Part shown: one piece after another, positions 13,080 to 64,000 of the stretch
Position numbering within the stretch: position 1 is the stretch's first letter
Layout: the number at the start of each line of letters is the position of its first letter
NCBI GenBank assembly: GCA_027492465.1
Contig: JAPUET010000024.1
Location: forward strand, 124,001 to 188,000
Length of the DNA stretch: 64,000 bases
Origin: Candidatus Saccharimonadota bacterium
Lineage (GTDB): Bacteria > Patescibacteriota > Saccharimonadia > Saccharimonadales > Saccharimonadaceae
Direction of reading: 5' to 3'
Made by a program: the position numbers and the translations under genes
The notes under the pieces: generated by a model
The model's input: the letters and a program-made list of their open reading frames with translations, nothing else
What the model was told of the DNA's origin: nothing
Databases searched by the model: none

Positions 13080-14732
13080 TTACTTTGGTATAATTAAATA
13101 CGCGCCCTGATAGCTCAGCTGGATAGAGCAGAGGACTTCTAAGCCTAAGGTCGGTGGTTCGAATCCACCTCGGGGCACCATTTCAGAGAAAAAATCCAAA
13201 TCTTCGCCCGAATGGGCGATTTTTTGGTTCAGATTTCCTAATTTCTGCCACAGGCAAAAACCACTTTCCGCCCCCTTTCGGAAAGTGGTTTTTGGGCTTT
13301 CGCCGTTTGGGGTTTGGGTGAGGGTTTTGCGGTGTAAAAACAGGTTCGAGCCAAAGATTTCAGACAAAACGGCTTTTTGTCCGTTTAAGTCGTCAGTTTC
13401 TCGTAGAGAACAGATAGATTTTGCGGTATTTAGCCAATTTTGCATAGGTTCTATCCATGCATTTTGGTTGGTCGTGAGATTAGCCAAACTTTCCTCTAAA
13501 CTTTTCTTTTCGCTCAAAATCTCCGATTTTTTAGCGAGAAAGGTTTGGCGGTCAATGTCTTGGTCTAAATAACTATCTAGTAAAATCTTTTGCTTAGCGT
13601 TTAGGCGAGCGATTTGCATTCGCAAATCGTCCAGTAAAGACAAGTTGCTGGAACTTTCGGCTTGTTCGTCTTGGGCGATTTTATCGGTCATAAAGTCGTA
13701 AATATCATCGGACATTTCATATTCGCCAAGAAGTGCCGAAAGTTGTGGCAACAAATCTTTTTCTCTTATTGCTGGTTCTACACATTTAACGGCTCGCTTC
13801 TTACGAGAACAGCGATAATAAGTCCAACTATGCGTGTTGCCGTTTTTCTGGGTTTTGGTCTTTGTTTCAGCCGTTATACTCATGCCGCAGTACGCACATT
13901 TCAAAAGCCCTAAAAACGGTATTGTCGGTTTAATCTGTGGTTGCTTGTGTCCACGCTGTTCAATAACAGTTTGCACCTTGTCCCAAAGGGCTTTTGAAAC
14001 TATCGGCGTGTGGCGACCCTCGTGCAATTCGCCGTTATACAGAAAATGTCCGTAATAAAACGGGTTTTGTAAAATGCCTTTTACTTTGTCGTCCTTAAAC
14101 AGTTTCCCGCCACGAGTAATTGCACCATTTTCTTTCAGAAAAACGGCGAGATTCTCCATTGTTTGATCGCCTTTGGCGTATCGGTCAAACATCTCACGCA
14201 CTAATGGTGAATATCTTTTATCTACAACTATGCTTTTATTGCGTATGTCGTTCAGATAGCCAAAAGGTGCGGTACTTGGGAAATCGCCATTTCTTACCCT
14301 TGCTCGTAAACCTCGCTTGGTGTTTTCGGACAAATTATCTACATAGTATTTTGACTGACCAAACATAATAGACAGCATAAACTTGCCCTGCGATGTATTC
14401 TCAAACTGAAATACAGGAAACCGCAAAAAGTTTAGTGATGTTTGGTCTAACAAATAGATGATTTGTCCGCCGTCTACCGAGTTGCGGGCAAGTCGGTCAG
14501 GGTGCCACGCTAAAATGCCATTGGCTTCGCCAGACTGCAAACGAGATAACATTTCATTAAAGATTGGTCGTCCTGGACTTTTGGCGGTGCGTTTTTCTAT
14601 AAGCTCGTCAATAACTGTTAAATTGTTATCTTTCGCATACTTGCGGAGTTCCGCAAGTTGAGCGTCAATACTCAAAACCTGCTTATCTTCCGTATCAGTA
14701 GACTTGCGAGCATACAGAATATACTTTTCCAT
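13080..14732 (-). CDS. Large serine recombinase of island 1, 3' end running antisense through tRNA-Arg
   Basis: 550 residues. N-terminal resolvase domain with catalytic Ser in LYARKS and the LAWHPDRLAR helix; 'recombinase' domain from about 160; zinc ribbon (CAYCGMS ... YYRCSRKKRAVKC) at about 280-320; then a long coiled coil. The last 31 residues, after 'FFSEM', are encoded by the antisense strand of tRNA-Arg and are probably a product of insertion. The start ATG 14732 has AGAGGAGGG upstream. The gene converges on the tRNA, and a 160-bp inverted copy of its 3' end lies upstream of its own promoter. If the segment 13176-15025 were inverted, the tail would become SFYAHARTHFSTKCQK. 59921-61549 is a close relative. 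Confidence 0.93.
   Translation of the reverse strand: MEKYILYARKSTDTEDKQVLSIDAQLAELRKYAKDNNLTVIDELIEKRTAKSPGRPIFNEMLSRLQSGEANGILAWHPDRLARNSVDGGQIIYLLDQTSLNFLRFPVFQFENTSQGKFMLSIMFGQSKYYVDNLSENTKRGLRARVRNGDFPSTAPFGYLNDIRNKSIVVDKRYSPLVREMFDRYAKGDQTMENLAVFLKENGAITRGGKLFKDDKVKGILQNPFYYGHFLYNGELHEGRHTPIVSKALWDKVQTVIEQRGHKQPQIKPTIPFLGLLKCAYCGMSITAETKTKTQKNGNTHSWTYYRCSRKKRAVKCVEPAIREKDLLPQLSALLGEYEMSDDIYDFMTDKIAQDEQAESSSNLSLLDDLRMQIARLNAKQKILLDSYLDQDIDRQTFLAKKSEILSEKKSLEESLANLTTNQNAWIEPMQNWLNTAKSICSLRETDDLNGQKAVLSEIFGSNLFLHRKTLTQTPNGESPKTTFRKGAESGFCLWQKLGNLNQKIAHSGEDLDFFSEMVPRGGFEPPTLGLEVLCSIQLSYQGAYLIIPK
13104..13180 (+). tRNA. tRNA-Arg(TCT), anchor of island 1
   Basis: Acceptor GCCCTGA/TCGGGGC, anticodon loop CTTCTAA (TCT), G18-G19 and TTCGAAT normal, CCA encoded (13178-13180). 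TATAAT at 13089-13094. The anticodon stem has two purine mismatches at its ends (G27-A43 and A31-G39), leaving three Watson-Crick pairs. The gene's 3' end is intact after insertion. A hairpin with T6 at 13204-13224, inside the element, now serves as its terminator. Confidence 0.93.
13175..13180 (+). other. Left attachment core of island 1 (tRNA 3' end)
   Basis: GCACCA, the last six bases of tRNA-Arg(TCT). The same six bases in direct orientation at 18370-18375 precede what looks like the tRNA's original terminator, so the pair brackets the island as a short direct repeat. Confidence 0.65.
13176..13335. repeat. Inverted repeat 1, left arm (recombinase 3' end)
   Basis: 160 bp, identical by eye to the reverse complement of 14866-15025. 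Starts at C72 of tRNA-Arg and contains two internal hairpins (13206-13219 and around 13257-13294) and the recombinase codons up to about residue 480. Confidence 0.9.
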
Positions 14733-14733
14733 T

Positions 14734-14863
14734 TTTTGCCCTCCTCTTTAACTTAAAAAGCCGACTTGGTGCAACACAATTCAGATAAACTAAACTGTTC
14801 CAAGTCGGCTATTTAAGCCAAAAAATAAAGTTTATCTATAAATTGTGTTGCTCTTTCATTATA
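14734..14863 (-). promoter_or_regulatory. Recombinase 1 leader: promoter plus H-type pseudoknot before the ribosome site
   Basis: On the minus strand: TATAAT (14858-14863), then a leader in which 14841-14851 plus 14829-14836 pair with 14771-14781 plus 14784-14791 (stem B), and 14800-14810 pair with 14759-14769 (stem A, 11 bp). The halves interleave in the order B, A, B, A, so they form a pseudoknot. A CTTAAA/TTTAAG pair extends stem A. The ribosome site AGAGGAGGG follows within 10 nt, so folding could gate translation. The leader of the second recombinase folds the same way. Confidence 0.75.
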
Positions 14864-14865
14864 CA

Positions 14866-15025
14866 ACACCGCAAAACCCTCACCCAAACCCCAAACGGCG
14901 AAAGCCCAAAAACCACTTTCCGAAAGGGGGCGGAAAGTGGTTTTTGCCTGTGGCAGAAATTAGGAAATCTGAACCAAAAAATCGCCCATTCGGGCGAAGA
15001 TTTGGATTTTTTCTCTGAAATGGTG
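14866..15025. repeat. Inverted repeat 1, right arm
   Basis: Reverse complement of 13176-13335, 160 bp. Ends with TGGTG (15021-15025), the inverted copy of the last five tRNA bases. On the plus strand the recombinase frame continues through the core to a stop at 15076, adding SFYAHARTHFSTKCQK. Confidence 0.9.
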
Positions 15026-15152
15026 AGTTTTTACGCCCACGCTAGAACCCATTTTAGCACCAAATGCCAGAAATGAGATTTTCGGCGGGTCACCCCCGAC
15101 CCGACCCGCCGAACTGCTCCGCAGGGGTTGTCTGAGCCGATGTCCTCGCCGT
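15021..15152. repeat. Inverted repeat 2, left end of cassette A
   Basis: 132 bp, identical by eye to the reverse complement of 16484-16615. Begins with core TGGTG, then the shared half-site S (15026-15055; TTTTTACGCCCACGC then TAGAACCCATTT), then a GC-rich hairpin region around 15083-15112. Noncoding between 15077 and 15222. Confidence 0.9.
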
Positions 15153-15222
15153 GACTCGGAGTGGCACAGTCACCAGCTTCGCTATTAGTGATAGAATTGA
15201 AGGAGAAACATTGGAGGTAAAA

Positions 15223-15606
15223 ATGCCAAAACAATTAACGTTTGAAGAAGCATCTGCGATTGTTATGCAACATATCAAGGCTCGTAAATGGGATAAAACA
15301 AATTCAACAAGGGGTATTGCCGTATCACTATCGCTGGAGGCAAATGAGTTGCTGGAATACTTTCAGTGGCACGATGAATCGTTTGGTAGCAAAGAAGATA
15401 TGGCAAGTGAACTTGCTGATATTCTCATTTATGCAATTCAGTTCGCCGACAGATATGAGATAGACATTCCATCGGCAATTGCAAAGAAAATTGAAAAACA
15501 AAATAAAAAATACCCTGTTGAAATATTTGAGATTGAAGATGAGAAAGAGCGCAACAAAGCGTGGCTTGAGGCAAAAAAGAACTACAAAAAGGATACAACT
15601 CTGTAA
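15223..15606 (+). CDS. MazG-like nucleotide pyrophosphohydrolase (cassette A)
   Basis: 127 residues. An all-alpha MazG/dCTPase-like fold: N-terminal helix, 'LEANELLEYFQW' with the EL.E..QW motif, then 'ELADILIYAIQFAD' carrying the metal-binding ExxD pattern. Family enzymes hydrolyse (d)NTPs to monophosphates and pyrophosphate. ATG 15223 has TTGGAGG seven bases upstream; an in-frame extension upstream lies partly inside the inverted repeat and is rejected. 18 bp before the next gene, so likely co-transcribed. A chromosomal relative lies at 36138-36485. Confidence 0.85.
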   Translation: MPKQLTFEEASAIVMQHIKARKWDKTNSTRGIAVSLSLEANELLEYFQWHDESFGSKEDMASELADILIYAIQFADRYEIDIPSAIAKKIEKQNKKYPVEIFEIEDEKERNKAWLEAKKNYKKDTTL

Positions 15607-15624
15607 CCTAGATTTCTTGGTAAT

Positions 15625-16473
15625 ATGAATAGTCTAGTTATTATTGCACGACCTATATCTGAGCCGGCAGACCCATATCTGCTTATTGATAACAATGGCA
15701 TATTAGATAAGTTTTTTCTTGAAAAAGACAAAATAATTACACTATCGGTCGATAAAGGCACGAGATACTGCACTGGGTGGTATGACATAGAATCACACAC
15801 AAACCATTTATGCGAAACAAGTGCTGTTGTTGATGTAAAATATGAATCTTGCTTTGCGTGTCGCAAGAAAACCGATTTTAACCCTGCGTTTTATAACACG
15901 TCAGATATATCAACCAAACAGGCACAGTACAACAATGCCCCACACTCGGTATATGTCGCATATTTTGGCAACGGTTTGGCAAAAGCAGGTATTATGTCCA
16001 ATTCTCGCGGCTTGGAGCGACTTTATGAGCAAGGCGCATTGCTCTATTCAATAGTTGCTTCTTGCCCTAATGCAACAATCGTACATAACTTGGAAAGCAA
16101 ACTTATACAAAAAGGGCTAAAGAATAGTATTACAAAGAAGCAAAAGGGCGATGCATTATCCAAATTATTTGATGTCTCTCTTGAAAAGCAGGTTTTCAAG
16201 AGCATGCTAAGCGATTTGGGCTACCCTGAAAATAAAGTTGTGAGCAACATCGATATGTTTTTCTTTGGAGAATACCCAAAAGCCCCAGTGCACGATTTTG
16301 ACAACCATGCTATATCGGGGCAAGTTAGGGGCGTTGTTGGACGATATCTAATACTCGAAAATAATGAGCGGCTCTATGGATACTGGCTTACTAATCTGTG
16401 CGGATATAAAGCCTCGTTCGGCGATAAGATAGATTTGATTAAACGGGAGCCACAACAGATTAGTTTTTTGTAG
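15625..16473 (+). CDS. DUF2797-like protein (cassette A)
   Basis: 282 residues. N-terminal region with Cys/His positions (YCTGWYD, HLCET, SCFACRKK) that could bind zinc, then 'HSVYVAYFGNGLAKAGIMS' and 'RLYEQGA', the pattern I associate with DUF2797, whose core recalls a GIY-YIG nuclease fold (Y..Y.G....K.G). The role is unknown; family assignment is by eye. Follows the MazG-like gene in the same direction with 18 bp between. Confidence 0.65.
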   Translation: MNSLVIIARPISEPADPYLLIDNNGILDKFFLEKDKIITLSVDKGTRYCTGWYDIESHTNHLCETSAVVDVKYESCFACRKKTDFNPAFYNTSDISTKQAQYNNAPHSVYVAYFGNGLAKAGIMSNSRGLERLYEQGALLYSIVASCPNATIVHNLESKLIQKGLKNSITKKQKGDALSKLFDVSLEKQVFKSMLSDLGYPENKVVSNIDMFFFGEYPKAPVHDFDNHAISGQVRGVVGRYLILENNERLYGYWLTNLCGYKASFGDKIDLIKREPQQISFL

Positions 16474-16483
16474 CCAGAAAATT

Positions 16484-16615
16484 ACGGCGAGGACATCGGC
16501 TCAGACAACCCCTGCGGAGCAGTTCGGCGGGTCGGGTCGGGGGTGACCCGCCGAAAATCTCATTTCTGGCATTTGGTGCTAAAATGGGTTCTAGCGTGGG
16601 CGTAAAAACTCACCA
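16484..16615. repeat. Inverted repeat 2, right end of cassette A
   Basis: Reverse complement of 15021-15152, 132 bp. Ends with half-site S (inverted) and core CACCA at 16611-16615, which is also the first base pairs of the palindrome that follows. Confidence 0.9.
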
Positions 16616-16682
16616 AAATCGGATTTTCTGAGAAATTTTCGCCCGAACGGGCGATTTTTTCTCAGAAAATCCGATTTTGGTG
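16611..16682. repeat. 72-bp perfect palindrome between cassettes A and B
   Basis: Outer stem of 25 bp from CACCA to TGGTG, inner hairpin with TCGCCCG/CGGGCGA. Its inner part (TTCGCCCGAA, then GGGCGATTTTTT) matches the hairpin just downstream of tRNA-Arg at 13203-13224, so it may be a copy of a tRNA terminator. It separates two cassettes, carries an inverted core at each edge, and can terminate transcription in both directions. Confidence 0.85.
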
Positions 16683-16717
16683 CATTTTTATGCTCAAGCC
16701 CGAACCCATTTCCAGCG
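16678..16717. repeat. Inverted repeat 3, left end of cassette B
   Basis: 40 bp, matches the reverse complement of 18336-18375 with two mismatches. Core TGGTG, then half-site S (TTTTTATGCTCAAGC, then CCGAACCCATTT). Another hairpin (GTCGGC/GCCGAC) lies inward at 16727-16741. Confidence 0.85.
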
Positions 16718-16787
16718 CGGCTTTAGTCGGCAGAGCCGACGCGTTACGCGCAACCCGAAACAGATGAAAATCTGCTATAGTACATAT

Positions 16788-17528
16788 ATGAATTTTGAAA
16801 ACAAAATCGCTCTAGTAACAGGCTCAACACAAGGAATTGGCTTGGCAATAGCACGCAGGCTCTTTGATGATGGCGCAACAGTAATTCTCAATTCACCACA
16901 CCAAGCAAATGTGTCTATACTAGATGAGTTTAGCGATAAAGCGAGGGTTCGCTTTTTTACTGCTGATATTTCTAGCAAATCATCTATTGAAGAAATGAAG
17001 GAATTTGTCCGTAACGAATTTGGACGACTTGATTTGCTGGTTGCCAATGCTGGAGTGCTACCACTTCCGGCAGGCATAGACGATATTACTGACGAGAATA
17101 TAAATCGCACCATAGATGTAAATTTAAAAGGCACGTTCAACACCCTACAAATACTAGGCAAACTTACGCAAGAAACGGCTAAAGACGGCGCGATCGTTAC
17201 GCTTACATCAGTAGATGGAATTATTGGCGAACCCTACGGAGTAATCTACTCGTCTACTAAAGCTGGTATCATCTCACTTACAAAGTCATTTGCTCGTAAA
17301 TACAAAGACCCTCTAGTTCGTGTAAATGCGGTTGCACCAGGCTTGATTGACACTCCGCTCACCGCGAATACAGGCGAAGACCCAGACTGGACAACTGATT
17401 TGTCAATAATTCAACGTATGGGTAAGCCTAATGAGATAGCGGCGGCAGCGGCTTTTCTTCTATCAGATGACGCTTCTTTTATTACAGGGCAAGTTTTGGC
17501 TGTTGATGGAGGGTTTACATTAAAATGA
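16788..17528 (+). CDS. Short-chain dehydrogenase/reductase (cassette B)
   Basis: 246 residues, classical SDR: cofactor motif TGSTQGIG (residues ~12-19), NAG at about 85, catalytic Ser-Tyr-Lys in 'TLTSVDG' and 'YSSTK', and the VAPGLIDTP stretch near 190. Resembles the FabG/3-oxoacyl reductase branch, but substrate is not predictable. ATG 16788 follows TATAGT (about 16774-16779) closely; the longer frame upstream begins in the cassette end and is rejected. Overlaps the next gene by four bases (ATGA). Confidence 0.88.
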   Translation: MNFENKIALVTGSTQGIGLAIARRLFDDGATVILNSPHQANVSILDEFSDKARVRFFTADISSKSSIEEMKEFVRNEFGRLDLLVANAGVLPLPAGIDDITDENINRTIDVNLKGTFNTLQILGKLTQETAKDGAIVTLTSVDGIIGEPYGVIYSSTKAGIISLTKSFARKYKDPLVRVNAVAPGLIDTPLTANTGEDPDWTTDLSIIQRMGKPNEIAAAAAFLLSDDASFITGQVLAVDGGFTLK

Positions 17529-18178
17529 ACAGGCAGATAAGATTATATTTATCATCTTATGGGCTGGGCAATAAGCCGCAGGAGTTAACTCCTCTTGTTG
17601 GAGAGAATAAGCGTACGGCAGTTATTGTGAACGCGCAAGACGCCAAAGCACCCGAAACTAGGTCTGAACGCCTACAGCGTGAGATTGACGCCCTCTCTGG
17701 ACTTGGCTTACAGCCAGAAGAGCTAGACTTGCGCCAGTACTTTGGCAAGTCTGGTGAGCTAAAAGAGTTTATCAAAAACTTCGGGCTTGTGTGGGTGCGC
17801 GGCGGTAATGTATTTGTCCTCAGAAAAGCATTCAAACAAAGCGGTTTTGACGAAATCATTACCGACTTACTCAAAAATGACCAAATCGCCTACGGCGGTT
17901 ATTCTGCTGGTGTTTGTGTGCTTGCTCCGTCATTATATGGCGTTGAGCTTGTAGACCCGAAAGACGAAGCCGCCGAGGGCTACGACGCAGAGACTGTTTG
18001 GGATGGACTTGGAATACTTGGCTATGCTGTCGCTCCGCATTATAAGTCTGACCACCCAGAGAGCGATGATGTGAACAAATATGTTGAATACCTCGCTGAC
18101 AATCATATGTTATTCAAGACACTTCGGGACGGTGAAGTTATTGTCATAAAAGGCCACAACGAAAAGATTGTATCCTAA
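17525..18178 (+). CDS. Peptidase S51 family protein (dipeptidase E / cyanophycinase type, cassette B)
   Basis: 217 residues. Nucleophile motif GGYSAG (about 123-128) preceded by 'VRGGN', the two hallmarks of the S51 fold; PepE members cleave Asp-X dipeptides. Translationally coupled to the SDR gene by an ATGA overlap, so the two travel as one cassette. No signal peptide. Confidence 0.85.
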   Translation: MNRQIRLYLSSYGLGNKPQELTPLVGENKRTAVIVNAQDAKAPETRSERLQREIDALSGLGLQPEELDLRQYFGKSGELKEFIKNFGLVWVRGGNVFVLRKAFKQSGFDEIITDLLKNDQIAYGGYSAGVCVLAPSLYGVELVDPKDEAAEGYDAETVWDGLGILGYAVAPHYKSDHPESDDVNKYVEYLADNHMLFKTLRDGEVIVIKGHNEKIVS

Positions 18179-18202
18179 ACCGCCAATGTCGCTAAAGCGA
18201 CA

Positions 18203-18288
18203 GCGCACCCACCAGCCAACCCCTTTTCAGCTAGAAAGGAAATTGGGGGGAATCTCAGAAAAAGACAAAGGGGTGGCTGGTAGGGCGC
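18203..18288 (+). ncRNA. Structured motif at the end of cassette B (shared with island 2)
   Basis: Stem of CCAGCCA and CCCCTTT with AAAGGGG and TGGCTGG (18212-18226 / 18267-18280), extended by a GCGC/GCGC clamp, enclosing a 40-nt loop with TCAGCTAGAAAGGAAATT then GGGGGGAATCTCAGAAA. The minus strand at 61885-61970 has the same plan and loop (TCAACTAAAAAG..., GGGGGGAAATTCA) with a different clamp. Both read outward, 80-95 nt from the cassette core. Could be an RNA or a folded-DNA recombination signal. A smaller hairpin lies at 18188-18201. Confidence 0.55.
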
Positions 18289-18335
18289 ATGTCGGCTTGC
18301 CCGCACAGACGGCGCAGCTCACTCACTCGCAGCTA

Positions 18336-18375
18336 CGCTGGAAATGGGTTCGGGCTTGGGCGTAAAAATGCACCA
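18336..18375. repeat. Inverted repeat 3, right end of cassette B
   Basis: Partner of 16678-16717 with two mismatches. Ends with core CACCA, preceded by G, matching the tRNA-Arg 3' end in direct orientation; this is the right edge of the island. Confidence 0.85.
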
Positions 18376-18409
18376 CAAAAAAGAGATTCGATGAATCTCT
18401 TTTTTGTGG
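18373..18409. terminator. Palindromic terminator, presumed original tRNA-Arg(TCT) terminator
   Basis: 17-bp stem around GAT with T6/A6 runs; starts inside the CACCA. It has the form seen after the other tRNA genes and is probably the tRNA's native terminator displaced 5.2 kb by the insertion. From 18410 to 18566 nothing recognisable is visible. Confidence 0.7.
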
Positions 18410-33427: not shown

Positions 33428-33503
33428 CGGGGTGTGGCGCAGTTGATAGCGCGCGCGGTTTGGGACCGTGAGGTCGAAGGTTTGAGTCCTTTCACCCCGA
33501 CCA
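33428..33503 (+). tRNA. tRNA-Pro(TGG) with A19-U56 elbow
   Basis: C1-G72 acceptor pair as usual for bacterial tRNA-Pro, anticodon loop TTTGGGA (TGG), CCA encoded (33501-33503). D-loop AGTTGATA gives G18, A19; T-loop TTTGAGT gives U56. The universal G19-C56 is replaced by A19-U56, compensated. D-stem GCGC/GCGC and T-stem pair fully, so the gene looks functional. Confidence 0.92.
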
Positions 33504-33546
33504 TAGAAAAACGACCGTCCTTCGATGGTCGTTTTTCTATGGTCGG
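33497..33546. terminator. Palindromic terminator embedding the tRNA-Pro 3' end
   Basis: About 22-bp inverted repeat with loop CTTCG region; the left arm starts in the acceptor stem and contains GACCA, the right arm contains its complement. Runs of A5/T5 flank the inner stem. Confidence 0.8.
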
Positions 33547-33555
33547 AATGGCCCG

Positions 33556-33671
33556 AACCTTCGACTTTTTGCGAAGCAAAAATAGTCGAAGGTTTGGCGT
33601 AGCGAATGATATAAAACAAAGCAGCGCAGCTATTTTGTTTTATGAATGAGAGGAGGAGGCCGCCAGCGGCC
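33556..33671 (+). other. Hairpin cluster downstream of tRNA-Pro
   Basis: Hairpins at 33556-33594 (AACCTTCGACT/AGTCGAAGGTT with inner TTTTTGC/GCAAAAA), 33611-33643 (ATAAAACAAA stem) and 33658-33671 (GGCCGC/GCGGCC). No convincing gene. Near 33550 a GCCCGAACC recalls the cassette half-site, which might make this a worn element end. Confidence 0.45.
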
Positions 33672-59920: not shown

Positions 59921-61549
59921 TTATTTAGTAGTATAATCACTCGGTAACCGCACTACGGGCCCGTAGCTCAGCCGGTTAGAGCACCTGCCTTTTAAGCAGG
60001 GTGTCATGAGTTCAAGCCTCATCGGGCCCTCCACAAACGAAATTCCGCGCCGCGAAGCAGGCGCAGCCAGGGCAGCCCGCAGGGCTGTCCATTGGTTTTT
60101 TAAGGGGGGAGAAAGAAATTTGTCGTCATTTATGACGACTTTTTTGTCTTTCAAAAAGAGGTTCGAGCCGAAGATTTCGGCGAGAACGCACTTTTTGGCA
60201 ACTAAGTCGCCGGACTCGGCGATTTTACGGATAGAAACGGCTTTCGCTATCCATTTTCGCATAGGTTCGACCCAGGCATTTTGACCGCTCAAAGTTCGCT
60301 CCAGTTTTTCCTCCAACGTTTTCTTTCGGCTCATGATTTCCGCTTTCTTGGCGGTAAAGATGTCGCGGTCGATGTCTTGGTTCAAGTAGCTATCAAGCAA
60401 AATACTTTGCTTGCCGGCGAGCTGCGCGATTTCCGCCCGCAAGCTTGCGCTTGCTTTGCTGGTCTGCGCCTCCTCGGCTTTCTCGTCTTTGCCGATTAGT
60501 TCGCATAGGCCTGCCGCCAGCGAAGCGGGCATTTGGTATTCTTTCAAAACCGCCGACAACTGCGCGTCCAGCGCCTCGGAGCGCACCGGCGCTTCCATGC
60601 ACCGGACGGCTTTGCTCTTTTTCGTGCAGTGGTAGTACGTCCATGCGTGGGTATTGCCGTTTTGCTGCCGTTTGACCTTTGTTGTGGCGGTAACGCTCAT
60701 GCTGCACGAACATTTAAGCAATCCGCAAAACGGCTTCGGCTGCTTGATAATCGCCTTGGTGTTGTTGCTGCGTTTGTCCATGACCGCTTGAACTTTGTCG
60801 AACAGCCGTTTTGAGATAATCGCTTTGTGCTTGCCCTCGTATACTTCGCCGCCGTAGGCAAAATGGCCGTAGTAAAACACGTTTGTCAGAATATTTTTGA
60901 CTCTCGTCCAGTAAAACGTCCGGCCATTTTTCTTTTTTATGCCGTTCTCGGCCAAAAAATCGGCGATGGCGGCAATTTTATAATTGCCGGTTGCAAACAT
61001 CTCGTATGCTTTGACGATTATCGGCGCGGTTTTCTTGTCGATTTTAATCGTCTTGGTGCGCAGGTCGTTATAGTAGCCAATCGGCGCTTTGCCCGGATAC
61101 TCGCCGCGCCGGAGCTTTTGGCGCAAACCGCGCTTGACGTTTTCGCTCAAATTATCGACGTAATATTTGCTTTGGCTGAACATAATCGACAATACGAATT
61201 TGCCTTGCGATGTATTCTCAAACCGGAACATCGGAAAGCGTAAATATTGCAGGATATTTTGGTCGAGCAGATAGATTATCTGCCCGCCGTCTATCGAGTT
61301 TCTGGCCAGCCGGTCGGGGTGCCACGCCAAAATGCCGTTAGCTTCGCCGTTTTGTATGCGCTCCAGCATTTTGTTAAACTTCGGCCGGCCCGGCGACTTC
61401 GCCGAGCGCTTTTCGATAATAGTGTCCACTATCTCGAAACCGTTATCTTTTGCGTATTTGCGCAACTCGACTATCTGCGCCTCGATAGACAAGACTTGCT
61501 TGTCCTCGACATCTGTTGATTTTCTTGGATAGAGAAAATATTTTTCCAC
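59921..61549 (-). CDS. Large serine recombinase of island 2, 3' end antisense through tRNA-Lys
   Basis: 542 residues, close relative of 13080-14732. Resolvase domain with Ser in LYPRKS, 'LAWHPDRLAR', recombinase domain, zinc ribbon changed to a C-x-C form (KCSCSMS ... YYHC ... RC), coiled coil. Start is GTG 61549 with AAGGAGGG six bases before it. The last ~35 residues after 'SFVE' come from antisense tRNA-Lys. The inverted copy on the other side would give instead RFYHEARTYFEG, in the same position as SFYAHARTHF in recombinase 1. Confidence 0.93.
   Translation of the reverse strand: MEKYFLYPRKSTDVEDKQVLSIEAQIVELRKYAKDNGFEIVDTIIEKRSAKSPGRPKFNKMLERIQNGEANGILAWHPDRLARNSIDGGQIIYLLDQNILQYLRFPMFRFENTSQGKFVLSIMFSQSKYYVDNLSENVKRGLRQKLRRGEYPGKAPIGYYNDLRTKTIKIDKKTAPIIVKAYEMFATGNYKIAAIADFLAENGIKKKNGRTFYWTRVKNILTNVFYYGHFAYGGEVYEGKHKAIISKRLFDKVQAVMDKRSNNTKAIIKQPKPFCGLLKCSCSMSVTATTKVKRQQNGNTHAWTYYHCTKKSKAVRCMEAPVRSEALDAQLSAVLKEYQMPASLAAGLCELIGKDEKAEEAQTSKASASLRAEIAQLAGKQSILLDSYLNQDIDRDIFTAKKAEIMSRKKTLEEKLERTLSGQNAWVEPMRKWIAKAVSIRKIAESGDLVAKKCVLAEIFGSNLFLKDKKVVINDDKFLSPPLKNQWTALRAALAAPASRRGISFVEGPMRLELMTPCLKGRCSNRLSYGPVVRLPSDYTTK
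59957..60033 (+). tRNA. tRNA-Lys(TTT), anchor of island 2
   Basis: Acceptor GGGCCCG/CGGGCCC, anticodon loop CTTTTAA (TTT), G18-G19 and TTCAAGC normal, T73, CCA encoded (60031-60033). Its terminal CTCCA is the core of the island's inverted repeat. Confidence 0.96.
60029..60122. repeat. Inverted repeat 4, left arm
   Basis: 94 bp, identical by eye to the reverse complement of 61703-61796; begins at C72 of tRNA-Lys (CTCCA). Confidence 0.9.
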
Positions 61550-61680
61550 CTCGCTCCCTCCTTGAACTTAAAAGGCCGCCTTGGCGGAACCAATCCAAAA
61601 CAAGTCTGAATTGACCAAGACGGCCGTTTAAGCCAAAGAAAAACTTGTTTTGATAGATTGGTTCCGTTTTTATTGTAGCA
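61550..61680 (-). promoter_or_regulatory. Recombinase 2 leader: promoter plus H-type pseudoknot
   Basis: On the minus strand: TACAAT (61672-61677), stem B (61643-61666 with 61585-61605, a 4-nt bulge), stem A (61615-61625 with 61574-61584, one G-U in RNA), then AAGGAGGG and GTG. Same interleaved order as the leader of recombinase 1. Stem A is similar in sequence; stem B is different yet pairs, which is compensatory evidence. Confidence 0.75.
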
Positions 61681-61702
61681 AAAATGCGCCGTTTACGGCG
61701 CG

Positions 61703-61796
61703 CAAATTTCTTTCTCCCCCCTTAAAAAACCAATGGACAGCCCTGCGGGCTGCCCTGGCTGCGCCTGCTTCGCGGCGCGGAATTTCGTTTGTGGAG
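61703..61796. repeat. Inverted repeat 4, right arm
   Basis: Reverse complement of 60029-60122. Ends with TGGAG (61792-61796), the inverted last five bases of tRNA-Lys. Confidence 0.9.
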
Positions 61797-61884
61797 CGGT
61801 TTTACCACGAAGCTAGAACCTATTTCGAGGGCTGAAGCGTAAGCTCAGCCCCGGCGCCTAGCGGGCAAGTCTGCCCGCTGCGCC
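61797..61884. other. Cassette left end of island 2: half-site S and hairpin
   Basis: Half-site S at 61797-61831 (GGTTTTACCACGAAGC then TAGAACCTATTT), aligned with the ends of cassettes A and B. A hairpin with TAGCGGGCA/TGCCCGCTG lies at 61859-61880. Noncoding. Confidence 0.65.
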
Positions 61885-61970
61885 CCGCCAGAAATCCAGC
61901 CTTTGATTCATTTTTGAATTTCCCCCCGCCGAATTTTTCTTTTTAGTTGAAAAGGCTGGTTTTCTGGCGG
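61885..61970 (-). ncRNA. Structured motif of island 2 (relative of 18203-18288)
   Basis: Long stem: CCGCCAGAAA and CCAGCCTTT pair with AAAGGCTGG and TTTCTGGCGG, with one internal mismatch. Read on the minus strand the 46-nt loop shares TCA-R-CTA-R-AAAG and GGGGGGAA with the cassette-B motif. 93 nt from the core. From 61971 to 62132: AT-rich with TATAAT at 62085-62090 and GGAGGG just before the methyltransferase. Confidence 0.55.
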
Positions 61971-62132
61971 TTATTACAACAATTAAAAAAGCCGATTAAG
62001 ATTTTTCTATTGAGGTTGTATAAAATGTAAATGTTTTATAGTCAATAGCGGCCAAAATGTTGCGGCTTTTTACAACAATCTATTCTATAATGAATATAGA
62101 GCTTACAAACATAAGCGCCATGGAGGGTAACA

Positions 62133-63218
62133 ATGACTAAGCAAAGTAAGAAACCAAAACTAATATCATTATTCTCCGGCTGCGGAGGCCTTGATTGGGG
62201 CTTCAAAGAGGCCGGCTACGACGTCATCTGGGCTAATGATTTCGATCACTCGTCATGCCAGACATATGCAAAAAACTTCGGCCCGCACATTGTCGAAGGC
62301 AGCATTGTCGATATCGACTTTGAAAAAGTACCGGACGCAGACATTATTACCGGCGGTTTTCCGTGCCAAGATTTCTCCATGGTCTACAAGCGCGGCGGAC
62401 TCGAAACCGACCGGGGCAATCTTTACAAACAATTTGTTCGCGCCGTTGAAACAAAGAAGCCGAAAGTTTTTGTCGCTGAAAATGTCAAAGGCTTGCTTAC
62501 TGCTAACCGCGGGCGCGCAATCCAGCAGATATCAGAGGACTTTGCAAAGCTTGGCTACCGCCTTGATATCAATCTCTACAACTTTGCAGAATACGGCGCT
62601 CCGCAACTCCGCGAGCGAGTATTGATTGTCGGCGTGCGCCATGATATCGACTTTCATTTTGAGAAGCCGAAACCGCTATACAATCCCGCAACTTATAAAA
62701 CTGCCGGCGAAGCGCTGAAAGACGTTGAGAAAGTTCCGTTCAACAACGAACACCAGAACATCAAAGACAAAACGCGCCAAATGCTTAAACTCATACCCGA
62801 GGGCGGCAACTTTACCTCGATTCCAAAAGACAGCCCGTATTACGTAAAAGGCATGATTAGCCACGTTTACCGAAAACTCGACCGCAACAAACCGTCTACA
62901 ACTATTATTGCCGGAGGCGGAGGCGGTACTTGGGGCTATCACTTTAAGGAGCCGCGCCCGCTGACAAACCGCGAACGCGCGAGACTGTTCGGCTACCCCG
63001 ACAACTTTATTTTTGAAGGCACAATTACGCAGGTACGCAAGCAAATTGGCAACTCGGTTCCGCCTGTTGCCGCAAAAGTTGTCGCTAAGCATTTGCTTCC
63101 AGCATTTGAGGCAGACACGATTCTTGCAATCAATCCAAAGGTTGAGTTTGACGATTACCGAGAACATATAACAAGCGAACTGGTGGGGGTCAAAAAGCTG
63201 GTACTGGCGGCGAATTAG
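62133..63218 (+). CDS. DNA (cytosine-5) methyltransferase
   Basis: 361 residues. SAM motif I 'LFSGCGGLDWGF', motif IV 'GGFPCQDFS' (catalytic Cys), motif VI 'VAENVKG', motif VIII 'RERVLIVGV', motif X 'QIGNSVPP'. ATG 62133 has GGAGGG seven bases upstream. One base before the nuclease gene, so a type II restriction-modification pair is likely; recognition site not predictable. Confidence 0.95.
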   Translation: MTKQSKKPKLISLFSGCGGLDWGFKEAGYDVIWANDFDHSSCQTYAKNFGPHIVEGSIVDIDFEKVPDADIITGGFPCQDFSMVYKRGGLETDRGNLYKQFVRAVETKKPKVFVAENVKGLLTANRGRAIQQISEDFAKLGYRLDINLYNFAEYGAPQLRERVLIVGVRHDIDFHFEKPKPLYNPATYKTAGEALKDVEKVPFNNEHQNIKDKTRQMLKLIPEGGNFTSIPKDSPYYVKGMISHVYRKLDRNKPSTTIIAGGGGGTWGYHFKEPRPLTNRERARLFGYPDNFIFEGTITQVRKQIGNSVPPVAAKVVAKHLLPAFEADTILAINPKVEFDDYREHITSELVGVKKLVLAAN

Positions 63219-63219
63219 T

Positions 63220-64000
63220 ATGGCGTCGCTTCTTTTTTCAAACTTGTCGCCTCTTAGGACGGACACTCAAAAATATGCCGATGTTTTCAAGGATTACTTA
63301 AAGCAATCTGATAATGTTCAAATTGCGAGCGGTTATATTTCGACCGATTCAGCGGTAGACCTCAAAAATATTATTGAAGCGAACGGCGGACCGAAACTTA
63401 ACCTTTGCGTCGGTATGCACTATTTTGAAGGCTTAAGTCCTGTCCAGCTTGATGCCTTGCAGTCGCTTGATATTGTTCTGCGAGAGCGCAGCCTCGGAAG
63501 CGTTTCTATGGTTACGACATTTCCGTTTCATGGCAAGCTCGTTAGTTTTGGCAAAGACGAGGCTATTCTCGGCTCAATCCTCGGTTCGTCGAATCTAACG
63601 AACATTGTCGAAGGCCAAAGGCAATACGAAGCAGATTGCCTGTTTGCCGGGGATAATCAAGCAGTCGAAATAAATGATTTTATTAACCGGTTGATCGAAA
63701 CCGCCGCTAAACCGCTCGACACGCTTACGATAACGCCGGTTATACCTGAAAATAATCTGCTCAAAGACCAGCTGGGCGTCGTTAAACTGCAAGACAGTGA
63801 AACAAGAAATGCCAAAGCGCAGCTTGGCGAAGTACAGTTTGATATTCCGCTTAAAGGCGATGTTTCGCAGCGCAGCGGACTTAATGCTTCTTTCGGTGAA
63901 GGCAGGCGCAACCAGCAAGGATTTGTACAGCCCCGTTCATGGTACGAGGTCGAATTGATAGTGCCAAAAGAGATTACCGATAATCCAGAATATCCAAAAG
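63220..64000 (+). CDS. PLD-fold restriction endonuclease (NgoFVII-like), 3' end outside window
   Basis: At least 260 residues, open at the right edge. Starts at ATG 63220, one base after the methyltransferase stop. 'FPFHGKLVSF' (His-x-Lys) and 'ILGSSNLT' form the phospholipase-D type active site half seen in NgoFVII/BfiI-like nucleases. The pairing with a cytosine methyltransferase supports a restriction role. Confidence 0.85.
   Translation, partial: MASLLFSNLSPLRTDTQKYADVFKDYLKQSDNVQIASGYISTDSAVDLKNIIEANGGPKLNLCVGMHYFEGLSPVQLDALQSLDIVLRERSLGSVSMVTTFPFHGKLVSFGKDEAILGSILGSSNLTNIVEGQRQYEADCLFAGDNQAVEINDFINRLIETAAKPLDTLTITPVIPENNLLKDQLGVVKLQDSETRNAKAQLGEVQFDIPLKGDVSQRSGLNASFGEGRRNQQGFVQPRSWYEVELIVPKEITDNPEYPK

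Follow-up and report, generated by a model that had tools for sequence, protein, structure and literature searches.

Two tandem elements at a tRNA-Arg gene

The window analyzed here, a 64,000-nucleotide stretch of contig JAPUET010000024.1 from a Candidatus Saccharimonadota bacterium, contains a 5.2-kb region that consists of two tandem integrative elements at a tRNA-Arg gene. Each element is composed of two modules with a 5-bp core in common. The module for a large serine recombinase (LSR) lies within an inverted repeat (Y) and adjoins the tRNA, and the cargo module lies within a second inverted repeat (X). The tRNA-Arg(tct) gene (13104–13180, + strand; detected with ARAGORN) provides the core with its 3' end, GCACCA, which is the target and contains the core of the attB attachment site. 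The initial annotation had listed five cores in alternating orientation together with their inverted repeats, and all of them were located: CACCA at 13176, TGGTG at 15021, CACCA at 16611, TGGTG at 16678, and CACCA at 18371. Its proposals that neighboring segments share a tRNA-derived core and that a serine recombinase is part of the system were likewise borne out. The pattern GTAAAAAYKCACCA occurs four times in the window, compared with 0.15 expected occurrences, and none of 100 shuffles reached four.

Element A (13176–16615) is intact. Its LSR module is bounded by a 160-bp inverted repeat with 100% identity, formed by the Y arm on the tRNA side (13176–13335, + strand) and the inverted copy Y' (14866–15025, − strand). 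The Y arm encodes the C-terminal part of the LSR on the − strand and contains a terminator-like hairpin that follows the tRNA. The LSR gene (13080–14732, − strand) encodes a protein of approximately 500 amino acids with Resolvase N-terminal (PF00239), Recombinase (PF07508), and zinc-ribbon (PF13408) domains, all scoring above the cut-off, which identifies it as a large serine recombinase. The cargo module is bounded by a 132-bp inverted repeat, also with 100% identity, formed by X' (15021–15152, + strand) and X (16484–16615, − strand), and carries genes for a MazG-like pyrophosphohydrolase (15151–15606, + strand) and a DUF2797 protein (15625–16473, + strand), both assigned with Pfam.

The remainder of the region, a 72-bp near-palindrome (16611–16682) and the segment at 16678–18375, is an older element (element B) with a collapsed LSR module. 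The 72-bp segment had been described as a palindrome and counted as a cassette; it is present only as a near-palindrome (Y3/Y3') with a short asymmetric center, and it is the remnant of an LSR module, since it still encodes the LSR C-terminal codons EKIARSGENFSENPILV on the − strand, continuing through the next core as ILVHFYAQARTHF and matching the ends of intact LSRs. Rfam searches at this palindrome returned only chance microRNA-like hairpin scores. The cargo module of element B is flanked by X4' and X4, an inverted repeat of about 40–43 bp with 93% identity that starts at 16678 and whose other arm ends at 18375. X4' still encodes VHFYAQARTHF. The cargo comprises a short-chain dehydrogenase (16788–17528, + strand) and a peptidase of family S51 (17525–18178, + strand), again assigned with Pfam. 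Among the loci used for comparison, L053 holds two complete tandem elements, and L077 holds a collapsed X'X stub.

The arms at the five junctions (J1–J5) are of two kinds: X stands on the side of the core that is tRNA-like, and Y occupies the other. Read in the CACCA direction, J1 (attL; 13176–13180, + strand) consists of the tRNA, CACCA, and TTTCAGAG; in most relatives, the tRNA end likewise lies 3–7 nt inside the repeat. J2 (15021–15025, − strand), with Y', TGGTG, and X' an intact inverted copy of the attP attachment site, reads GGGCGTAAAAACT, CACCA, TTTCAGAG. J3, which separates elements A and B (16611–16615, + strand), reads GGGCGTAAAAACT, CACCA, AAATCGG, and J4 (− strand) reads GAGCATAAAAATG, CACCA, AAATCGG. 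J5 (attR; 18371–18375, + strand) joins X4 and CACCA to the original tRNA-Arg terminator and reads GGGCGTAAAAATG, CACCA, CAAAAAAGAGATTC, where CAAAAAAGAGATTC belongs to the terminator hairpin (18373–18409); in relatives, such a hairpin stands directly 3' of the tRNA. The X–core–Y order at J2, J3, and J4 is the order expected for a free attP. As in other tRNA-targeted integrative elements, the core is found at both outer ends (CACCA at 13176 and 18371), the tRNA is intact, and the tRNA–terminator order is restored across these ends. Synteny was sought as proof of the exact empty site; the downstream EamA gene is not syntenic within the genus, and the empty site is therefore based on the tRNA–terminator order.

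The core lies inside the recombinase gene

Beyond marking borders between segments, as in the initial annotation, the attP core lies within the LSR gene itself, 9–10 codons ahead of a conserved C-terminal motif, with the codons for the conserved peptide (F/L)YxxARTYF on its far side. In all 74 of 74 elements, the LSR frame is free of stops over the final 15 codons of Y, up to the core. Once the element is integrated, the frame enters the tRNA gene and acquires an antisense tail that differs per tRNA (e.g., RGGFEPPTLGLEVLCSIQLSYQG). The LSR in the window behaves in the same way, running without a stop up to the core and on into the antisense tRNA with a tail that begins with PRGGFEPPTLGLEVLCSIQLSYQG. 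When the frame is instead read through the inverted J2, which equals the free attP sequence, the LSR terminates with a short peptide that is conserved (SFYAHARTHFSTKC, RFYHEARTYFEG, EFYNSARTYFSTKC, or CLFEKVRTHFAENPQE; HLYDCTRTFFQGQGS in Verrucomicrobiota). The corresponding spare native C-terminus in the window is found in inverted orientation at 15021–15076 (+ strand), where it reads VSFYAHARTHFSTKCQK followed by a stop.

The motif was found at J1 in 1 and at J2 in 47 of 55 elements in a first sample (4 and 0 in other frames), and in pooled data, the numbers were 0 of 75 for J1 and 66 of 75 for J2. Synonymous changes in the tail are enriched in frame (1768:1913, vs 1417:2343 and 471:2178 in the shifted frames), and the tail codons are AGA/CGA for Arg, ACN for Thr, and TTT/TTC for Phe. 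This codon pattern shows that the tail is selected at the protein level.

LSRs without repeats carry the same motif uninterrupted (DVRTFFQ, ELARTDSQQ), which indicates that the motif is an old part of the LSR that is now cut off by the core. In the repeat-bearing clade, the core has moved ahead of the motif, so that integration cuts the motif off. An element that inserts by way of the attP located at the end of its LSR gene therefore exchanges the native end for a tRNA-antisense tail. The element thus shares two features with suicidal integrases, namely a site inside the integrase gene and an alteration of that gene upon integration.

The architecture recurs across the phylum

Two further elements of this kind were found in the same genome. 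The second (locus L018, genome G000) uses a tRNA-Lys(ttt) gene (59957–60033, + strand) with the core CTCCA; its LSR module (60029–61796) has Y arms of 94 bp with 100% identity, and its cargo module starts at 61792 (61792–64000 within the window, + strand; X' arm 61792–61972) with a C5-methyltransferase (62133–63218, Pfam). The other X arm lies beyond the end of the window, at contig position 190854, and the X arms are 181 bp long with 100% identity. The element is complete on contig C24 up to 190854 and carries, in addition to the methyltransferase, further genes that probably represent restriction–modification cargo. The third element (L066, contig C30) is found at a tRNA-Arg gene near 1432–1507 and has the core TACCA.

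LSR searches at the level of the order gave matches in 69 of 393 genomes (E ≤ 1e-60; other LSR groups included), and at the level of the phylum, 77 of 380 Patescibacteria genomes had matches (E ≤ 1e-100), which is about 20%. We annotated 129 LSR loci, nearly all from Patescibacteria and two from Verrucomicrobiota. A Y repeat is present in 108 of these loci, and 53 have both Y and X repeats, with median arm lengths of 124 bp (Y) and 153 bp (X) and approximately 99% identity. Most tRNA families serve as targets. All repeat-bearing LSRs form a single clade (SH-like approximate likelihood ratio test, 99) that comprises Patescibacteria and the two Verrucomicrobiota and whose tree does not follow host taxonomy. 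Two other LSR groups found at tRNA genes of Patescibacteria are without such repeats. The two Verrucomicrobiota loci (L033 and L034) are related LSR elements that have Y repeats and lack the leader pseudoknot described below. In four loci (L147, L150, L152, and L153), the Y-type repeat spans several kilobases, and the LSR module may contain cargo as well.

LSR orientation, cargo inversion, and arm evolution

The initial annotation proposed that any segment could invert or be added at a core. Addition was confirmed insofar as elements accrete at one tRNA, as in the window and in L053, and it does not extend to any segment, given the fixed order of tRNA, LSR module, and cargo module. Inversion was confirmed for the cargo segment and not for the LSR module: in 105 loci, the LSR is directed at the tRNA, and only a single doubtful locus has it reading away. 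In that locus (L157; genome G588, contig C10), a Y arm with LSR C-terminal codons abuts a tRNA-Tyr gene. Across the integrated copies compared, the orientation of the LSR is thus fixed. The direction of the cargo varies (away in 19 loci, toward in 10, and mixed in 9). In L056 and L090, both at tRNA-Lys genes and with LSRs that are 88% identical, the LSR modules are colinear, and the cargo modules are mirror images of each other with both ends swapped. This pair provides natural evidence for inversion of the cargo block.

The arms are approximately 99% identical within an element and usually only 60–85% identical between elements whose LSRs are 76–95% identical, one exception being the window and L053 (97%). 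As judged from these comparisons, the arms evolve in concert. The differences between Y and Y' comprise 31 synonymous changes, 55 nonsynonymous changes, and no stops, against a neutral expectation of 3.1:1, and both arms keep the LSR frame. The inverted copy therefore gives the impression of being in use rather than dead.

A possible lock and release by inversion of the LSR module

The free form of the element would be a circle with two identical attP sites (X–core–Y) that are inverted relative to each other and part the LSR from the cargo. From such a circle, whose layout was deduced from integrated copies, the observed order tRNA–core–Y–LSR–Y'–core'–X'–cargo–X–core–terminator could be derived. 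Insertion by way of the attP that ends the LSR gene would then act as a lock, replacing the native C-terminus and leaving a severed enzyme that is weak or inactive, with a complete spare end plus attP stored in inverted orientation behind the LSR gene. Release would require inversion of the LSR module, either by RecA-dependent homologous recombination between the Y arms, which are long and perfect, or by an LSR that acts at the cores. Such an inversion would rejoin the LSR gene to its native end in place, after which the restored LSR could excise the element, and reintegration would lock it again. The rarity of the opposite orientation (105:1) would be explained because the LSR is then complete and the insertion unstable.

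We assign a probability of roughly 50% to this reading of lock and release. Sequence comparison establishes the architecture, the loss of the native end, the retention of its inverted copy, the fixed direction of the LSR, the inversion of cargo, and the joint evolution of the arms; we infer that severance weakens or abolishes the activity of the LSR and that inversion of its module would revive it. Generalized to the whole phylum, the proposal would describe bacterial mobile elements in which the serine integrase turns itself off by inserting within its own coding sequence and is reactivated on the spot by a flip against an inverted spare end, a reversible lock that works without a directionality factor; in this wider form, we hold it more tentatively, at somewhat less than even odds.

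Several observations weigh against this reading. Neither a free circle nor an inverted LSR module was directly seen. The only locus with the opposite orientation, L157, is on a contig that ends in the repeat and may reflect an assembly path. Only 12–16 residues are lost on integration, and nine J2 copies lack the motif at the threshold used. Two AlphaFold2 models, made to see where the native end docks, gave a predicted local distance difference test score below 50 for the C-terminus and thus no confident structure for that part. In the tandem at L053 (6807–8682) and L028 (6676–8265), the X arm of the neighboring element supplies the distal LSR with a native-type tail again, yet this LSR stays put. 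Finally, the model accounts for the Y repeat better than for the equally perfect X repeat.

Searches of plasmid and phage collections gave no free circles, and viral contigs contained almost only nonrepeat or truncated LSRs.

Alternative explanations

The layout may simply go back to an ancestral event that duplicated the attP region in inverted orientation; the duplication would have no function itself and be kept identical by gene conversion, with the orientation of the LSR fixed by convergent transcription or other selection. The single origin in one LSR clade and the concerted evolution of the arms are consistent with this. The persistence of the repeats across a phylum in which the LSRs are highly diverged, the constraint on the spare tail at the protein level, and the open reading frames in Y' all argue for use. 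We regard a functionless duplication as unlikely.

Alternatively, the inverted attP pair could serve the free circle, as in the yeast 2-µm plasmid, which has the same topology, a circle that is split by a pair of perfect inverted repeats bearing the recombinase sites (PMC3147054). LSR-driven inversion between the attP sites during replication would amplify the element before integration, and severance of the gene would be a by-product. The variable orientation of the cargo relative to the LSR, the inversion of the cargo block between L056 and L090, and the concerted arms would all fit. Two equivalent attP sites, however, predict that the LSR faces either way, which is at odds with 105:1, and no replication gene or origin was found in the cargo among the matches listed (72 cargo proteins; best 25 of 109 families). 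Recombination between two attP sites is not a reaction that LSRs are normally known to carry out, which also counts against such an amplification system, and we give it a rather low probability.

Improbable, in our view, is a third possibility, in which base pairing between the inverted copies of a single strand forms a duplex attP stem, with the LSR and the cargo as loops, so that an incoming single strand is integrated. Judging from the layout, a single strand could fold into one X–core–Y stem of approximately 290 bp; if the strand taken up were always the same, the LSR would always face the same way, as seen in the 105:1 ratio, and the upkeep of both X and Y arms as perfect repeats would be accounted for. 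Against this, an extra resolution step would be required after replication, no strand-specific transfer gene was found among the cargo matches listed, and no serine recombinase is known to integrate via a folded single strand.

The cassette system of the initial annotation, in which the LSR inserts or flips independent inverted-repeat segments at whichever core, would explain the shared cores, the tandem accretion in the window and L053, and the inversion of cargo; a free chain of cassettes was nevertheless rejected as highly improbable because the order of the modules and the orientation of the LSR are fixed and the 72-bp segment is the remnant of an LSR module. An assembly artefact at the inverted repeats, suggested by the many short-read contigs that end in them, has a negligible probability and is ruled out in general for the architecture by double-repeat layouts in one-contig genomes (G004, G007, G008, G410, G508, G535, and G563), in the second and third elements of the present genome, and in approximately 100 independent assemblies with different sequences, so that it is conceivable for L157 only.

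Relation to known systems

Literature searches, which had most subscription papers and preprints outside their reach, retrieved no published description of this architecture. According to a 2021 review, recombinases that disrupt their own gene are exclusively archaeal, and the persistence of elements with suicidal integrases is paradoxical (PMC8371274). The archaeal SSV-type integrases described there (SSV1, pTN3, and pT26-2) resemble the present LSRs in that attP lies inside the integrase gene, integration parts the gene from one of its ends, and the elements persist. They belong to the tyrosine family and to archaeal hosts, whereas the present enzymes are serine recombinases of bacteria, lose only a short C-terminal piece, and have a complete inverted spare end plus attP beside the gene. 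In mycobacteriophages with integration-dependent immunity such as BPs, attP is likewise located in a coding gene, insertion at a tRNA gene swaps the C-terminus of the protein and thereby sets a switch, and no directionality factor is evident (PMC9262239). In those phages, attP is in the repressor gene, and the repressor is truncated and activated; here, it is the recombinase that is altered, and its end is stored in inverted orientation. The 2-µm plasmid (PMC3147054), with its similarly divided circle, differs in that its recombinase, Flp, is a tyrosine recombinase and in that the plasmid is self-replicating and not integrated at tRNA genes; for the present elements, the circle is deduced from integrated copies. 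None of the texts retrieved unites the features of these three systems with a serine recombinase.

Ordinary tRNA-integrated LSR elements of Patescibacteria (L093–L098, L107–L109, and L112) share the enzyme family, the orientation of the LSR toward the tRNA, and a frame that enters the tRNA. Unlike the present elements, they have no inverted repeats, and their conserved RT motif precedes the core and survives integration. Integrons, the shufflon, and Hin/Gin systems are similar in having cassettes or inversions at short cores and differ in using other recombinases or site types, whereas here one two-module unit has a fixed order. An assignment as an integron was rejected, as the enzyme is a serine recombinase instead of the tyrosine recombinase IntI and the cores alternate instead of forming a one-way attC array.

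The elements would represent a bacterial, serine-recombinase case of a self-disrupting integrase that carries its own possible solution to the persistence paradox. The design suggests that directionality control can be built into the layout of a gene and could show how self-disabling integrases regain activity; the question of how such elements excise becomes directly testable in a laboratory strain. The elements move variable cargo such as restriction–modification genes, and with the LSR present in about one-fifth of the sampled Patescibacteria genomes, they are relevant for gene flow in ultra-small symbiotic bacteria, as well as for the design of lockable integration tools.

A leader pseudoknot and a further tRNA-associated palindrome

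The 5' leader of the LSR gene contains an H-type pseudoknot (14752–14851, − strand), identified by covariation and located between the −10 box (14858–14863) and the Shine-Dalgarno sequence. In an alignment of 16 sequences, 94.6% of the cells form pairs, both partners change in 14 of the 28 pairs, and 63 cells are compensatory, compared with 20.9 in shuffles (0 of 500 shuffles as high). Strong covariation of this structure was observed across about 38 related loci, and no Rfam family matched it. The pseudoknot is likely a cis-regulator of LSR expression. A role as a guide RNA was considered as a mere idea and set aside, as the conserved parts do not track the tRNA target.

Elsewhere in the window, at 33473–33565, a near-palindrome joins the 3' end of a tRNA-Pro gene to an inverted, diverged copy of its own T-arm region, which could be the remnant of another tRNA-directed element.

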